A stretch of 64,000 bases of DNA from positions 62,001-126,000 of the forward strand of contig JNDT01002335.1 in NCBI GenBank assembly GCA_000697055.1, in the 5' to 3' direction. A program made the position numbers and the translations under genes. Below are positions 43,206 through 52,400 of this stretch, piece after piece. Origin of the DNA: Saksenaea vasiformis B4078. Lineage: Eukaryota > Mucoromycota > Mucoromycetes > Mucorales > Saksenaeaceae. Within the stretch, counting starts at the first letter, position 1. Every line of letters begins with the position of its first letter. The notes below the pieces were generated by a model. It saw only the letters and a program-made list of their open reading frames with translations, did not search any database and was not told the origin of the DNA.

Positions 43206-43401
43206 GGTCTATATCGTTTCTATTTAGTGCTCGCGTCCTCGAACACCAAGGCAAAAAAAAAGTTTCCACACTCGGAAGGACTGTTAAGTGACTGCTACAG
43301 ACCCCCACGGGACCAAAGTCCGGAGGGGCCGAGTGGCGAATTAATTATGTCACAAACTTTTATTCGGTCATTGAAATCGAAATGTGACCATTTTTCTTTA
43401 T

Positions 43402-44652
43402 TTATCTTTGTGTTGCCAAATTCGTATTGGGAAACACTTCTTCTTTGCTCCAAGCATATTCCATAGCATCAAAATACTTCTTTATCTCCAGAAACTTTTC
43501 AGGCGAGCATCCTTCACAGCTTTGGAACTCTTGCAGGAAGTTTTGCATTCTCTGTTCCAAGACTGTTTTCTGTGACGCGAAATCCAATGTGCCATCTTCC
43601 GTGTTTTGAACTGGAACAGTTGATGTCACATGTGAGTAAGTAGACACTATTAACAGCATTACGAGTTAGAAGCTGTATGCAAGTAGTTTTCTACAATACC
43701 TTGAAGGACGTTTAGGTTGAGATTGGCACGCCGGAGGAGGTACATATGTTTGCATGCTACTTGGCGCCAGACGGAGTCTCTGCAGGTGCATGCTGTCATG
43801 TTCGAATTTTCGACAGAAATATTATATGCTACGCCCTCCTGTGTGAATGATCTGACAGTATGACCCGAGACCATATCGTCAACTACAGCGCTAGGTATCT
43901 GGGCAGCTGCAATCTCTCGTCGTCTTCTCTCTCTTTCTGCGGGTCCCATTCTTCCGACATTTGCGCTTACGCGTGCTGTGGTCGTCTTGAAGTCAAATTC
44001 CACATCATGCGTCAAGATATAGATCAAGCGATCTACTCTTCTGTTGCGTTTTCTTCCAAGGTATGTCGACTTGAGTTGATTGTGCCAGCTTTCCACGTAG
44101 TTGTTGGTTTCCATGTTGGTAAAGACTTGCGGTTGGAATGCTACACACCAGTTCTTAATCTTCGTCAAATTATTGCGAGAAAGATGTGTGTTGCTGATTA
44201 TCTGCAATAAACTTTGCCCTTTATTCCATGGCACACGAAGGATCCCGTTCTCACATTAGCAACTTCAAGGGAGTAATAATTTGTCGGTGCGCTTTTTTAT
44301 TTTCCGGTTACAGCGCCAGCTCATTTGCGGATATGTTTCATCCATGCACAAGCCACATGGAACAAATACAATGAGGGTGATGGGTGTTTGGGAAGGCGAT
44401 TGAGATGACTGTGTACTTGGCGATGCTGCAATCAATCATCATCATCTTTGTGAACGATTCAAGGTCGTAGAGATCCCTCAGGAACGTCAGCCGTTGCATC
44501 AAGGGTTGTGTCTGTCGTATTCCGACATCCTTTTCAGTCATTGTCAGAGGCATTGCCATCCAATAATTGCTAACTGCCGTAAATATGATTCTGATTTCTA
44601 CCGCGGGATTAGTTTGAGCACAGACTGTGTTGCTTGTTTCTTTATCTATCAA
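43402..44652 (-). pseudogene. MULE-like transposase remnant with SWIM zinc finger
   Basis: The upstream part (44652-44338) contains TEKDVGIRQTQPLMQRL and FTKMMMIDCSIAKYTVI with AFPNTHHPHCI, resembling the catalytic-domain region of Mutator-like/FAR1-type transposases. After a stop-containing stretch (44240-44337), 44234-43659 encodes NNYVESWHNQLKSTYLGRKR and a SWIM zinc finger CTCRDSVWRQVACKH (CxCxnCxH), a usual C-terminal feature of this group. 43659-43402 adds a helical tail. The stops between the blocks and the frame change after HCI indicate a decayed copy, although an unrecognised intron could explain part of the gap. It lies next to the UTP5 start and opposite in orientation to the Fanzor-type gene. 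Confidence 0.68.
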
Positions 44653-45284
44653 TCCTACTGATCCTTCATCTATAAATGAGTTTTGGTTTTTTTTTTTGCA
44701 GCCTTTTTTCGTGAGTTGTTCTTCAAAATATGGAGGGCTGATACATGTTTTGAGCGATTAGGTATTTTTTAAGTAGTTGCACAATAAGCTATCTTGTTTT
44801 GAATCCCGAATAAAAGTGAGCGACATAAGAGTGCGTCAAAAGCAGCATCTGCAAAAAAGTCTAGACACTTACAGTGAATGAAAAAGATGGATACGCTGTT
44901 GTTTATGTACGGTCTGAACGTTATCTCGTGCCTTTTCAAAACAAGTAACTCTCAGGGAGCTCGCGTCCAACGTTCTTGTTGCCATTTGAATGAACTACGT
45001 CCATCTTGACTACGTCCACCTCCTTGATCCCGGATATGCTGCTTCTTCCTGTGGCAGTAAAACAAAGAATAAGTTGCGCACACGTGACTAGTTTATCTGC
45101 GAAACAGGATCATGACCTGATTGAACATTGTAGTAGAAGAACAAAGAAACGTCATGATTAATTTTGAATGACGACAATAAAAACACATAATGACCATATT
45201 CCAAACAGCCTTCTACGTCTCTGCCCTCCTATCCATTTTTACTTATTTTTATGGAACCTATTGTCGAGGAAGAAGAAGGAGTGG
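44653..45284. other. Transposon-island spacer
   Basis: About 630 bp upstream of the MULE-like remnant with no recognisable coding sequence. It may include the N-terminal part of that gene in degraded form. Confidence 0.4.
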
Positions 45285-45983
45285 GCCCACCCGCGGGTGC
45301 CGATATTTTGGAGGTACCCCTATAAAAGGAAGGTCGTGATGAGAGCTTATTGTCACTATTTTCCACGTAAGTAAAAATTACTTCCTTGAAATTGTGAGTT
45401 TTCATATAGGAAGAAACTATGTCAGTCTGATAGTACTCTTATCACTGACACCTTAAAAGTGCTAGAGGTACCTGCTAGAGATACCCGCTAGAGGTACCTG
45501 CTGAAGGCAGTCAAGGAACAAGTATTTGTAATAACCTTCCTTCCAGCACATTTTAATGTATAGCCTTATCTGATAATTATAAGCATATTTAACCAGCATC
45601 TGATTAGTTGGTTTATATAGCATTATGTATCAAGTTGTTTAGCAGTACGTATAATTCGCTATTTTGTCCTCACTCCAATTCTTGTGTGACTCTCTCTAAT
45701 TCTGTCTTTTCAGACACCAACTAATGTCGAGCTTTCCAACATTGTAGACACCAGCTTCATCTCGTGGAAATGGCACAACTACTTTGGCATTTCCTTCAGG
45801 ATAATGAGGAAGAGTTTGGAGCGATTGGAAAGACATGATGAAGAAGATTCTCGAATAATAAGTGAATAGTAGAAGTAGTGCAAAATTCACACAGAAATTC
45901 GCGTTTTATACGGGCAGTATTTCCTTTTTTGGGGTACCTCCAGGGGGTACCTCCAATTTACCACCATCCCCCACCCGCACAAC
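45285..45983. mobile_element. Inverted-repeat-bounded element upstream of the Fanzor-type gene
   Basis: The left end (about 45285-45322) reads GTGGGCCCACCCGCGGG and GGAGGTACCCC. The right end (about 45933-45983) reads GGGGTACCTCC twice and then CCCCCACCCGCAC, an inverted and slightly expanded version. The interior has a 13-bp tandem repeat carrying the same GGTACC core and a short minus-strand ORF (45696-45890, MNFALLLLFTYYSRIF). The arrangement suggests a non-autonomous DNA transposon or paired ends of two nested elements. The terminal repeats are GC-rich in an AT-rich setting. Confidence 0.5.
45461..45506 (+). repeat. 13-bp tandem repeat, about 3.5 copies
   Basis: Units are GCTAGAGGTACCT, GCTAGAGATACCC and GCTAGAGGTACCT, followed by a partial GCTGAAGG. 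The GGTACC core is the same as in the flanking inverted repeats, so the array may be a subterminal binding site for a transposase. Confidence 0.8.
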
Positions 45984-46147
45984 GGCAGAGGCAACGCTAC
46001 AGGCACTCGATTTTGCCACGGGATCGAGGACGCTTCCAACAGGTTACAAGAAAAATAAAAGTATCCAATTTTCTCAGGCCACAGTTTGGCCATCTAAGGG
46101 TGAGTCAAACTACGATACATCCATTGCTTAATCATATATTTCATGTA

Positions 46148-49132
46148 GCAACGTTTCCGGCATATTGCCGAGCAATATCACGTCCTTCGACGTGACGCTT
46201 TGAACCTGGCAAACCTACACGTCCGTCGCTGGGCGGAAGAGGGACACGACCACGGAAACTTGCACATTTCCACCAATTGCTACTCGAGAATTTTGGAGAG
46301 CGGCATTCAGATTTGTTCAGTACAGGCCCTTACACATCAACACCACCCAAACCGTAAGTGTGTACATGCAGGGAGGTGGTCAAGTATCCATGCCTTTATT
46401 TTGTAGCCATCATGGGAACGAAGCCTTTGGACCACGGCGATTGATCACTTCAAGCCGTTGCGGAAGGACGAACATGGTGGATGTAAGTTAGCATTGATCG
46501 ATTGAAAATGCATGACACTAATCTCGGCATAATAGATCTGTACGCTATCGAAAAGATCGAGGAATTTTTCATCGAGATGCCTGATCCATTTGCAATCAAC
46601 ACAATACAAAGTATGAGATAGTCTTCCAATGATTATAGATCTAACATGCCCATAGATGTTCGCAGGCACCTCGTGAATAATGTCTCGACATATTTGCGAT
46701 ATGTATGGTTGGCCTATTTTCGCGCTTTGAAAGAGCGCCATCAAGGCTTCTTACCTGGGGGAGGACCCGCGGCTCATGGTACGAAACAAGTTCGAATAAA
46801 TCTCACTAACAATGGTTCTTCTAGCTCGATTCGCCATTACTCGTATCACAAATCATGAACCACTAGAGGACCATCACTGGCAAGACATGCCTTTCAGAGG
46901 CGAACTGCTGACTTTTTTTGAGTAAATACCTTGTGATTAATTTCATTGTTAATCATATCGACTGTCACAATCTGTACCAGACTCACCTCGGTGATATCCT
47001 GATTGACGAGGTCGATCCAGAGGATGAAGGAACCCATCCATTTTTTCCAAGGATTGTGAAATACATGTGCGAGTTGTATCCGTACACAGTTCAATATGAC
47101 GGTAGCCGTTGGTCACTTCTGCCTATTGCAACACGTCAAGTCGGTTACTTTCCAATTACGGGAAGGGGCCTATGGAAAATCCTACGTGATGCCTTCCTTG
47201 CGAACGATGCTGTTCCTCCACTGTTTATGGTAAGTGAGCCTATCCTGCTTTTAAGTCGTCATGTACATTAAATGCTCTGATTCTAGCGTGAGAATCCAAG
47301 ACAGAGACAACTACGGTATTGCAGTCTCAAAGAATTTGACGCTCTTTGTCGAGATCCCGTCTGGCGAGAAAATTTTTGGGAACAACTATTTAACATCGAC
47401 AAGTGTCAGAAAAATCGCTGGCGGTGGAATAATGAACGTAGGTCGCTGTGCTTCCGAACTGCTGCTAATTAATTTATATTCTAGCTGTCGTTAATGCTGA
47501 ACGTACTGCTCTTGAATTTGCTTACTATTTTGAAACGGATGGTGTAGGCGCATCTGTGGTATTCGAGTGTCGCAAACACGGTAGGAGGAAAATGGCATGC
47601 TTCTTCCTGTCCTCATACTTTTTTAAGAACGTTTTCCCTCCTCCCAAAGGGATTTTCGGCTCCTACCCCGGAACATAGACCTTGGCTCATGGACGAAGGG
47701 TATTTATCATCTTAACAAGGAACCGACAGGTCTGGTACAGGAGCGTCTCGCAGGATCAAGGATCGTGGGACTTGACCCGGGCATACGATCGTTGTTCAGC
47801 GCGGTGGACACCAACGAGCCACTTGTAACTCGAGAGCTGCGCAATGCTCACACAGCCACAATTAGCAACAATGAATACCAGTAAGTCCACTTTGCCATAT
47901 GATGATCGATGATCATTAATAGGTCTTTAAGGCTCCGATCCATGTTTTCGTGGGCCAAGCAAACGGAATTAAAATCACGTCGGGATGCATCCATGCAACA
48001 ATATTACGACGAAATTGCGGAGAACCCGCCTACAGTCGCAACCACAATGGAGTTCAGAAGATATATACAAACAATCAGTAATATACATCGACCGTAAGTA
48101 TAACATTTATTTGAGAATATTCAACGATGCTAAAGTGGTCACTAGCATGCACAACTTTAATTGTTCTTATCGCCATCGTGAAAATCGGATGCTCTTGTAC
48201 TCTGCACGGCGTAGTACGTTAAATGTACTGGCTGACAGGGTAGTTACGGGTTCGCCCCGAGACGTAAGTGGCAACATCTCTAATTATAGATCTAATGTCT
48301 ATGTTTCGGATAGGATTTGATCCAACCACATTATAAATCTACAAGATCAAAAAGGAAGCGCCGGCGGCGGCGGTTAAGAGAAAATATTCACCAACAACAG
48401 CAGCAGCCGACCATCGTTGCAAACGGTGATGCTGATTTGAAGCCTACAATGAGGGGTCTCGGTCCGTTACCAGTGAAGGTATATGTTACATACTTTCCAT
48501 TCGGATAATGCTAACTTAAAAACACATGCTAGCAATTCCGGAAAATACTCGCGCAGAGTCCCTTGTTATACTAATAGACGAATATAACACTTCAAAAGTG
48601 TGCTCCAGCTGTGACAATGACACGCAGCAGTTTGTGACGCCCACTTCACGGTGCCAGCACAACTAAGTCACTGGTTTTTGCAAGCTCATACCAATTAACA
48701 TTGTGTATCCTTAGAACGAAGTTGCTCCGTCGTCCGAGCGACGATCGTCGCAAAAGATACTGTTTGAATGAAGAAAATGTCATATTGCAAAGGACTTCGC
48801 AATGCCCTGAGTTGCAACCATTACGTGAGGATCAGATCATACCGAAAGCAAGCTTCATTAACAGCATTCATGATAGCTTTGAACGATTTCCGATGCCAGG
48901 TCTATCCAATTAAATTGTGCAACCAACATCAGTTGGGAGGCGCTGGCATGGAACTTGAAGAACAAGGCCACTGGTATGTAATTCCTGTGTGAAAGTATGA
49001 AGCTAAGATTTTCTTTAATTTTGGAATCGCGATATCAATGCGGGCAGAAACATGCGGCGGATTCTGGTCGCATGCATGGAAGGTGACATGCAATTGCAGA
49101 CAAGGCCCGCTGCATTACGTCGTCCACAATAG
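46148..49132 (+). pseudogene. Fanzor-type RNA-guided nuclease (eukaryotic TnpB homologue), probably decaying
   Basis: Multi-exon, plus strand. N-terminal helices: RFRHIAEQYHVLRRDALNLA, EFWRAAFRFVQYRP, SWERSLWTTAIDHFKPL, YLYAIEKIEEFFIEMPDPFA. Mid-region: IVKYMCELYPYTVQYDGSRW and ALEFAYYFETDGVGASVVFE. RuvC-I: IVGLDPGIRSLFSAVDTN (Asp codon 47774). Bridge-like basic exons: RSMFSWAKQTELKSRRDA and KRKRRRRRLRENI. RuvC-II: VILIDEYNTSKVCSSC (Glu codon 48580) with the first zinc-finger CxxC. RuvC-III: WNRDINAGRNM (Asp codon 49031), and a tail with TRPAALRRP. Most introns are 45-110 bp with good GT-AG borders, e.g. 47580-47691 (acceptor ...ACATAG). Frame breaks that splicing does not explain lie near 46255-46285, 46910-46985 and 48555-48575. 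The second zinc-finger cysteine pair is not clear. The first exon is uncertain (somewhere in 45860-46100). Confidence 0.8.
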
Positions 49133-49463
49133 CAGCAACAACAACAAGAACCTGCACCCCTTGGTGGTGCTAGGTCGTAAGGAACGGCCAACTAGCCTCT
49201 CGTTAGGCACTGGGAGAGCTTCGTAAGTACCATTTCAAATGTTTGTGACGACATTCTTATTTTCTTTGTGGCTTAGGGCCCTTCCAACCCATTCTGAGAT
49301 GCAAATCGGGAAACATGTTTCGCGTTCCTTTTCTCCTTTTTCTTCTTTTTCTTCTTTTTCCATTTTTACCGTAGATTAAGGTCGGAACGTTGTGTATACC
49401 TTTCTATTATATTCTTATCCGGTAAAACCAAGGGAAAATAGCTAAATCGCAGAGTTTTATACC
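49133..49463. other. 3' flank of the Fanzor-type gene
   Basis: About 330 bp between the nuclease stop and the APC5 stop. It holds CAG-repeat-like sequence just past the stop, a patch AGGGCCCTTCCAACCC near 49277-49292 and a long pyrimidine tract (49328-49371). In TnpB and Fanzor loci the guide RNA comes from this end, but no RNA fold could be computed here. Confidence 0.4.
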
Positions 49464-52400
49464 TTAACTTTCGGAGATTTCTTGTTCTTCTAGACGGCGG
49501 TTCTGGATAATATCTCTGAGTCCGGAAGCCTTCTGAAATTGTCGGAAATTATTCATATTTTGATAGCCTAATCATGCAAAGAACGCTGTCAGATGGTTTT
49601 TTTTCTTTTTTTTTCTTTTTTCCTTTTAACAATGATTTTTCCCTAACCTACGACTGCCTTGGTTACGTAGTGTAAAGCGTTTTCTAATTGATGATCTTCA
49701 TTCAGTGCTTTAGCGTAGACGAGATAGAGTTCCAATTGCAGTGGTACAGATCCCAGTCCTAAAATCTACGGAAAAGCGGTGTCAGTACCCTTTACGTTCT
49801 TGTTTTGTGTTCCGCGGTACTTTTGGGAAATTGGTTTCCAGCATAGATATCGCTTCCGCCGTTTCTTCCGGCGACTGTAATTGGATCTTCGCTTCTGCCA
49901 TTTTTAGGATACTTGCAAAGTAATGAGGAGCATCTGCTATCTTTCGACACAGGTTGAGCGCTTCACGAAGCATAGGGATAGCCGATTCTGGATCGCCATC
50001 CTCCTAATTAATTTACCCTCTATTAGCATCGCATGTTAAAGTACTCTAGGCTTGTTTACCAAGTACACATGCGCTTGTGCCACGGCATTATCTGCTAATG
50101 CCAATTTATGTCCTTTTGCCTGTAAGATACTGTGTGCCTCCTCAAGGATCCGTATACACTAGTTTCTTTGTAAAAAAAAATCGAACCACTATAGCTTTCA
50201 TTACCTCGGCGGGTTCATCTTGTTCATATAGCTCAATCGCTTGCTGATGCAGAGTGTAGAATAATTGTTCTACATCTTCTGGATCTGTCAATGCCAGCGC
50301 TTCCTCTTGGCCTCTTCCTTTCGCTTCCATACTGGTTATCCTAGTCAAAGGTTAACTCAAGACATCGTTTCTTCATAGAATATTACCCAGCACGGTGCAT
50401 CTGCCGTTTTATTCTAGCAAGTGCTTGTTTCCATCCGAGAGCCACTTGACAAAGTTCAGGATGCTTCTTTTTAAAAATTGCCAATGCGTCCAAAGCCATC
50501 TGGTAATTTCCACTAGCGGCAAGCTTAAAGATAGACACGTCAGTATTTTCCAGTTGGCGGCACCCTATTACCTTCTCTGCGGCAAGGATACACGATTTCT
50601 CAACCACATCCAAGGTACCTTCTTCTGTTGCTAATGCCATTTCCATGTAGACGTTTGAAAGTTCATCATTACCTAAACACAACCACGCATCAGAAGGACG
50701 GTATAGATAAAATAGTAGTAATTCTACCGTATTGCCGAAAAATCAATGCTTTCGTAAGGTGTTGTGTTTGAGTAAGGGAATTCACATCATGGACGGTGCT
50801 CTGGACTGTACTCCTTGCAATGGCATCGAGTACAGCATCCGGTCGATCACCCTAGAATCATGGCTAATTAGGTCCACGAAAGGAAAGGTTTCACCCTACA
50901 CATCGGATCATATCTTGCGCTTGGGATATCTTGTGCAAACTTTGCAGGTAAATGACGTTGGACTCCTCTGTAGTCTCATCACTAGCTATGTAAGGAGGAT
51001 CTTCGATGCTGGATCCTACGCCTTTAATAAATCTACTCCAACTAAAATAGAAAGAGATTTATCAACAGACCAACAATCCTTTTTTTTTTTTACCTCAACA
51101 CTTCGTTGACACAGTTTTGGTCTCTCGCTTCACGTGCAACCTCTAACGCCTCATTAAAAGCCTAAATCATTTGTAAGAGGGTACGAACTTTACGCTAATT
51201 AGTCATTACCATTTGTGCTTGCTGCAAGTGCCCAAGCTTTGTTTCGAGGATACCTAGATGAAGAAGTACATACTGGTACATCGGCCTGGGAAGTTTCAGT
51301 ACAGGTGAAAAGAGAAATCTCATGGCTACATACACTTCTTGATCCGACAGGCAGTAATCAAAGAACCGATGGAGACTGGCCAAGGCGCCTTCATACTCGT
51401 TTGTGCGGATGTAATTGACAAATCTAATAGGACACATAATAAGTACAGTGCCGCAGTAAGTAAGATTCTGCATGATCTTACCGTAGCTGATGGATCTTAG
51501 CTAGTTCTGGAGCATGCCGTTGGATAAGGTTTAGATAATTATCTAAAAGTGCTGGTGCTATGTCGCTGTCTCCTGTCTCTGAATGCGAAAATTTAGGTTA
51601 TTATCAAGGCGAGAAAAAAAAGTAAGGGTAACCCACTTTCAATCGTTTCTACTTGTGAATTAAGCACGTGTTCTAATCGATGCCATGATAGCCATCCAGG
51701 TTCTTTATCTTGCTGAGAATCCAACGTGATTTCGGTGGTTTGTGGTAAGCGACGTTTGGATGGGATCTTCACGGGTACAGGTGTTAATTGCTGTTCTTCT
51801 GCTTTACCGTCCACGTAAGCACGGTAGATCTCAAATAGCCGAGAAGTTTGTTCAAAACTTGATCGGAGATATTCGATTCGGCATCGCCGCACAAACTCGT
51901 TAAAGATACCATGTTTGTCCTAAGGATTTGTGAATTGTATATCTTTGCGTAACAACGGAACCCACCATGATGAGCCTTTCCATTTCTGTATCCTTTAATA
52001 AAAGATGCGTGAGGATAATCTAATAGCCTATAGAAACCGACAAACTTTCTTTTTTACCTCGCCCTCACCCTCTTCGATCACACTAATGAGTACTGTGTAG
52101 CATTAAAGAAAGGGGGTTTTGGGAGCCGTTAGGATCAATTACGCAAACGTGATTCAATGATACTTGCGAAGAAAGAATTCGTGCAGATGATCTGGCGTTT
52201 GTATTTTTTGAGTCTGTAGTAAAAGAAAAGTAAGCGCCAATGGCGTCTATAATATAGGAATGATAAAACGTACGCGTTCCTCGAGTGAACGAAGCACTGC
52301 AGGATCGCCAAACTCACTTAGCGATTCACATAGTTCTGTTAGAGTAGGCTCAGGTTGGACATTACTGTCCTAACATTGACGATCAGCCGAGACCCAATAC

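Follow-up and report, generated by a model that had tools for sequence, protein, structure and literature searches.

The locus lies in a 64,000-nucleotide stretch of the genome of the fungus Saksenaea vasiformis B4078 (contig JNDT01002335.1, positions 62,001 to 126,000 of the forward strand; hereafter the window), and consists of a transposon copy with fragments of a transposase gene on the minus strand of its left half and an intron-rich gene of the Fanzor1 type on the plus strand of its right half. In window coordinates, its features are as follows:

43336..49287, plus strand (oriented by the Fanzor gene): whole transposon copy of the Fz-I subfamily, with a later nested insertion, delimited by copy comparison
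43659..44255, minus strand: C-terminal part of a MULE-type transposase (E region and SWIM zinc finger, CxC...CxH), an open frame
44338..44757, minus strand: next upstream transposase piece, part of the MULE catalytic domain, with a sub-threshold match to Pfam MULE (E 0.075; 13.9 bits against a cut-off of 27.6)
45251..45294, plus strand: start of the first coding exon of the Fanzor gene (MEPIVEEEEGVGPP...), continuous with the exon remainder in copies without the nested element
45295..45969, no strand given: nested 675-bp non-autonomous DNA transposon in Fanzor exon 1; the other copies compared lack it at this place, and it occurs alone elsewhere
45970..49177, plus strand: Fanzor1 gene body of 17 exons, modelled from pN/pS frames (19 loci), splice sites and the homologous exons of locus L053; broken in the window
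about 45970-46099, 46149-46353, 46407-46482, 46536-46611, 46656-46778 and 46825-46921, plus strand: exons 1-6 of the gene body
about 46981-47229, 47287-47438, 47486-47581, 47650-47880, 47923-48094 and 48147-48267, plus strand: exons 7-12
about 48314-48479, 48534-48662, 48715-48824, 48865-48973 and 49019-49177, plus strand: exons 13-17
47774..47776, plus strand: RuvC-I Asp (D75), invariant in four lineages of the genome
48580..48582, plus strand: RuvC-II Glu (E277), followed by CSSC of the zinc ribbon; invariant in the four lineages and aligned with PpFz1 and SpuFz1
49031..49033, plus strand: RuvC-III Asp (D380, in WNRD); invariant in the four lineages and aligned with PpFz1 and SpuFz1
49178..49210, plus strand: conserved block that starts at the stop codon, a candidate omegaRNA core, 31 of 33 positions identical to the sister subfamily
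49211..49287, plus strand: right end of the element, with an intron-like GT...AG stretch, an inverted-repeat motif (GTGRCTTAG) and the terminal GGCCCTTCC; host flank (the predicted guide) comes next

The RuvC D/E/D motifs that the initial annotation had described were located directly in the sequence letters, on the plus strand and in order, with GLDPGIRSLF at 47768-47797, ILIDEYNTSKVCSSC at 48568-48612 and WNRDINAGRNM at 49022-49054 carrying the three catalytic codons listed above. The gene around them was also correctly recognized as intron-rich: in 15 of the 17 modelled exons, pN/pS was 0.41 or less in the predicted frame, so the motif-bearing gene exceeds chance. Over all exons we counted 338 synonymous and 288 nonsynonymous differences relative to 19 other genomic loci (pN/pS 0.25), and only the exons at 47287-47438 and 48147-48267 were exceptional (1.07 and 0.87, respectively). 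These 19 loci were aligned from 30; some of them represent a single copy that is split between two contigs, and each exon is covered by part of the set. All three frames were scored, and where two were open the lower ratio was chosen, which favours a reading of selection. The Fanzor exons were under purifying selection. In this model, the boundaries of introns 4, 6 and 8 are accurate to a few bases. The gene had originally been taken to start at 46148, which is wrong, as the first coding exon opens at the ATG at 45251-45253 and is split by the nested element; the Fanzor protein of a sister subfamily begins similarly, with MEPLAEEGPP. Near the C terminus, a CAG/CAA repeat at 49137-49142 varies in length between copies from -6 to +57 in three-base steps, that is, as a glutamine-rich tail of variable length.

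The Fanzor identity proposed earlier is borne out, and relationship in sequence to the solved proteins PpFz1, SpuFz1 and GtFz1 places the protein in the Fanzor1 type. The relatives in this comparison were PDB chains and loci of the same genome. On its own, the joined window product matched Parasitella parasitica Fanzor1 weakly (E 0.005, or 0.009 with a shortened version). A two-sequence profile built from the window lineage and its sister found PpFz1 as its best match among solved chains (E 1.1e-5), followed by a non-Fanzor chain at 0.31 and SpuFz1 at 0.38, and with two more lineages of the same genome added the four-lineage profile had SpuFz1 (5e-12), PpFz1 (2e-8) and GtFz1 (4e-5) as its top three. 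The Pfam TNB profile matched the joined window product below its cut-off (E 1.5e-4; 22.2 bits against 26.3). This weak TNB score is the one observation in favour of a TnpB-like protein other than Fanzor1, for example a Fanzor2 in an IS607-type element or another RuvC enzyme, which we consider very unlikely given that the best solved matches are Fanzor1 proteins. The RuvC-I Asp was aligned with that of PpFz1 at low score (1.1 and 7.4 bits) and was not cleanly aligned with SpuFz1, and the RuvC-I exon searched alone against the PDB found no match. Of the published Fanzor1 pattern D-X(125,275)-[TS][TS]XX-[C4 zinc finger]-X(5,50)-RD, the D, TSKV, the first CxxC and the RD are in place, with about 205 residues between D and TS in the window lineage. 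Of the embedded zinc finger of the initial annotation, only the first CxxC is clear; the second pair of cysteines lacks clean CxxC spacing.

Elsewhere in the genome, the TNB domain of TnpB/Fanzor matches at least 137 places (150 of 388 candidates scored), and at least five other Fanzor-like lineages were distinguished by eye among 14 further loci (L039/L040, L041/L042/L051, L044, L045-L048 and L049/L052), with L039 and L040 holding long intronless frames of 772 and 452 amino acids. Near the element, an open reading frame encodes ribosomal protein uS5 of the eukaryotic type (E 1e-113), and minus-strand frames at 49782-50742, which begin some 500 bp past the element, may belong to a helical-repeat gene, perhaps alpha-SNAP. 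The Fanzor relatives and the style of the introns point to a fungal host, probably of Mucoromycota.

That the gene is carried by a transposon, as the initial annotation supposed, was confirmed by comparison of copies across the 38.7 Mb and 666 contigs of the genome; the carrier is a MULE/MuDR-type element, a repeat unit with 9-bp duplications. The right half of the element matches at least 30 other places in the genome (40 of 80 candidates scored; some are halves of one copy). Among the six copies that reach the right end, homology stops at 49284-49287 in five and at 49259 in one, and in 16 of 20 other places with a right end the match comes within 3 nt of it. At the left, the boundary is ragged from copy to copy. 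In ten longer copies, left homology starts at 43336-43370 in six and at 43894-43924 in three, one being cut by its contig, and a single fixed left end was ruled out because the copies on contigs C445, C535 and C555 differ in the left part beyond about 43900. By eye, the terminal inverted repeats amount to a short common TWAGTCACAAA-like motif only.

Reading 18 left ends and 33 right ends by eye, the window included, we found an exact 9-bp target duplication around the whole unit in C538, where both ends lie in one contig, and exact 9-bp duplications in five cross-contig pairs (C492/C491, C413/C412, C244/C243, C284/C323 and C298/C56), with C645/C575 as a near match. We interpret each pair as one copy broken across contigs, and the contig numbers are consecutive in the first three. 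In most left flanks read, a CC stands directly ahead of a duplication that begins with AA, by eye and with an ambiguous register, which is a hint of a C-rich TAM. No matching target duplication was seen for the window, C272 or C233, nor for the sister elements C525 and C456, both ends of which were read. The 9-mer in the right flank of the window copy, AACCCATTC, is identical to the 9-mer in the left flank of the copy on C303, and the window copy is thus possibly a chimera, formed in assembly or by ectopic recombination.

The left half of the element carries the MULE-type transposase fragment, which is divergent and was matched weakly. In its 597-nt open frame, pN/pS was 0.20, compared with 1.54 and 1.79 in the other frames (14 rows including the window); the transposase frame was under purifying selection. 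The SWIM match is below the cut-off in the window (E 0.01) and above it in the C445 copy (E 3e-4); no SWIM was found in the C645 copy, whose equivalent MULE piece had no Pfam match. A genome search with Pfam MULE matched 48 places, none of them inside the window copy or six other full-length copies, and the first catalytic Asp of the transposase was not found by eye in the copies examined, so that all copies seen may be defective. At L049 (C531), L004 (C599) and L052 (C666), a Fanzor/TnpB-like lineage distant from the first is arranged convergently with a MULE transposase. In C531 and C599 the MULE match is about 273 bp from the Fanzor/TnpB-like gene, and a 3.2-kb stretch covering both genes is 97% identical between these loci; C666 is 87% identical over 1.7 kb.

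The initial annotation had read the locus as a fungal Fanzor gene. The window copy, however, has decayed, as one of a large family of repeats, and is not a working nuclease gene. Its Fanzor gene is a pseudogene: exon 1 is interrupted by the nested element, two splice sites are lost and exons differ in length by a single base at three points. The length differences lie near 46262, 48556 and 48964, and each is absent in 12 of 12 other copies that cover the site. The lost donor at 48663 and the lost acceptor at 49018, just upstream of the RuvC-III exon, are likewise intact in all 12 others, in a comparison in which some intron coordinates were off by 1-2 bases. Uniform entries at introns 4 and 8, which are coordinate artefacts, and a 'stop' in the last exon of the window, a probable gap artefact, were excluded from these counts. 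The nested element has imperfect terminal inverted repeats with GGGGTACCTCCA-type ends and its own 9-nt duplication (45286-45294 and 45970-45978); other full or partial copies of it occur in C333, C638, C637, C88, C233, C627, C169 and other contigs. Under the same lesion model, none of the six full-length copies besides the window was intact, and the partial copies L024, L026, L027 and L028 were lesion-free over the five to six exons that they hold.

Two other accounts of these lesions were weighed. That the host has adopted the gene as a working Fanzor, read with unusual splicing or frameshifting, would fit with the retention of all three catalytic residues and of the conserved post-stop block, but exon 1 is split by the nested element, and 12 of 12 copies stand against the window at each of the three private length differences and two lost splice sites. 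A working window gene is rejected on these grounds, and we regard host adoption as hardly credible. The lesions might instead be assembly or sequencing errors, the window joining two different copies of a collapsed repeat. The flanks of the window do not match as a duplication, the right one is shared with C303 as described above and numerous contigs end within the element, which speaks for such an error. Against this, the lesions are scattered from 45295 to 49018 and include base substitutions at splice sites, the nested element is present whole with its own duplication and the six other full-length copies are likewise damaged by the same model. On balance we judge assembly error improbable, and real decay of the window copy remains our reading.

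In an element of the sister subfamily, L053 (C537), 652 nt of the left half are common with the window at 96% identity, whereas its Fanzor protein is 58% identical to that of the window over the aligned part. Since part of the left half is 96% identical while the Fanzor halves are strongly diverged, the existence of two subfamilies with a like transposase half suggests module exchange. In a global alignment of the last part of the two Fanzor genes, identity is 56-67% in eight exons and 33-50% in seven introns.

The 33 nt that begin at the stop codon form the best conserved of 1,529 overlapping 33-nt windows in the alignment of the window copy with its sister. The block contains a GCCT-CTCGTT-AGGC hairpin (by eye) and occurs at 44 places in the genome with three or fewer mismatches, compared with none for a reversed control. 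A third variant, three mismatches off, is identical at four places (C319:528, C382:1886, C420:24780 and C662:65080). Within the window subfamily, the stretch 49181-49223 has 2 differences in 516 cells, compared with 216 in 9,128 for introns, although several further 43-nt stretches are equally invariable. The block is the likely core of a putative omegaRNA. RNA from the stop codon to the right end folded no better than shuffles (z 0.13), and no Rfam family matched. A candidate omegaRNA stem, in which GGAACGGCC would pair with the terminal GGCCCTTCC, was dropped, since the sister subfamily does not retain this pairing and the fold as a whole does not outdo shuffles.

It is conceivable that the block serves the end of the element as a binding site for the transposase or as a replication signal, rather than as the scaffold of a guide RNA. 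Its place near the right end, the inverted-repeat motifs close by and its unremarkable folding energy speak for this. However, no second match to the block with three or fewer mismatches exists on either strand of the window element, so the block is not an inverted-repeat unit, and it is better conserved than the inverted-repeat stretch 3' of it (2 of 43 columns variable in 49181-49223, compared with 11 of 53 in 49224-49276). It also begins at the stop codon and so falls in the stretch, from there to the right inverted repeat, in which the accessible text of PMC10432273 reports an omegaRNA region for Spizellomyces. We therefore think an end signal unlikely, though by a smaller measure than the other alternatives, and retain the block as a candidate omegaRNA core.

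In both subfamilies, a GT...AG stretch separates the block from the terminal 8-9 nt of the element. The donor-like GT is present in 17 of 18 aligned rows (all but C666), and the AG is lost in the window-subfamily copy L023. The AG falls within the inverted-repeat motif and may be kept for a reason other than splicing. The 18 rows comprise 12 of the 17 short loci L054-L070 as sister rows, which with C602 make 13 L-loci, plus the window and four window copies; L056, L065, L069 and L070 were left out as shortened, diverging early or duplicating another pattern.

We conclude, with a probability of roughly 0.87, that the window holds a decayed Fanzor1 gene copy in a eukaryotic MULE/MuDR-type DNA transposon, in working copies of which the transposase would move the element and Fanzor, with an omegaRNA, would recut the donor site. 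In such copies, the left-hand minus-strand transposase presumably mobilizes the element and yields the 9-bp target duplications, and transcription of the right-hand plus-strand Fanzor gene would run past the stop codon as far as the right end of the element. By analogy with published Fanzor and TnpB, the conserved RNA block would then act as the omegaRNA scaffold and the adjoining host DNA as the guide. The guide-loaded nuclease could cut the empty donor site after excision, and repair would copy the element back. The window copy itself is a relic, capable of none of these steps. It is possible, although we would not favour it at present, that a self-contained element is made up of two divergently encoded genes, for a MULE transposase and the Fanzor1 guide nuclease, that its transposase half has been joined to at least two diverged Fanzor modules with one RNA core and that the nuclease recuts the empty donor site, which the DDE transposase leaves, as TnpB does for TnpA. 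In a bolder extension of this idea, the GT...AG stretch would be a real intron, whose removal would splice the host-derived guide onto the scaffold.

Bacterial TnpB proteins of IS200/IS605 and IS607 elements have a RuvC D/E/D set with an inserted zinc ribbon and take their guide from the right end of the element. Unlike these, the window gene is eukaryotic, intron-rich and carried by a DDE-type MULE element rather than a TnpA element. The initial annotation had called the locus the best candidate for an unusual system, which is overstated, since an association of Fanzor1 with MuDR-type elements in Mucorales was published in 2013. In the accessible text of that paper (Bao and Jurka 2013, PMC3627910), Rhizopus, Phycomyces and Mucor have MuDR-type elements that carry Fanzor1 and show 9-bp duplications, these elements are said to encode no MuDR transposase, and Fanzor1 elements are reported to reach high copy number elsewhere, with about 150 in a red alga. 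The window unit resembles ROr-4, PBl-3 and MCi-4 of that paper in its Fanzor1 protein, MuDR-type element, 9-bp target duplications and type of fungal host; it differs from them, by their descriptions there, in having a MULE-type transposase fragment and in that two diverged Fanzor genes share one left half. With PpFz1 (PDB 9cf0-9cf3; accessible text of PMC11423790), the best solved match of the window lineage, it shares aligned LIDE-TS-C and WNRD motifs, although the similarity is low (E 1.1e-5 with the two-sequence profile). It is like SpuFz1 (PDB 8gkh and others) in its RuvC domain, in its many full, partial and ghost copies and in a conserved RNA region between the stop codon and the right inverted repeat, and unlike the Spu-1 elements, which are reported without a transposase between their inverted repeats, as far as the accessible text of PMC10432273 describes them.

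In the open-licence literature, we found no paper on the transposase linkage and its combination with diverged Fanzor genes, which extends the association of Bao and Jurka (2013). For the role of Fanzor in eukaryotic transposons, this genome provides a natural comparison. It has many copies of an element with a DDE-type transposase, in which Fanzor was under past selection, a candidate RNA core is kept and 9-bp duplications define the donor sites and so predict the guides. With so many copies and a second MULE-linked Fanzor lineage in the same genome, the idea that the nuclease recuts donor sites becomes testable outside TnpA-type elements.
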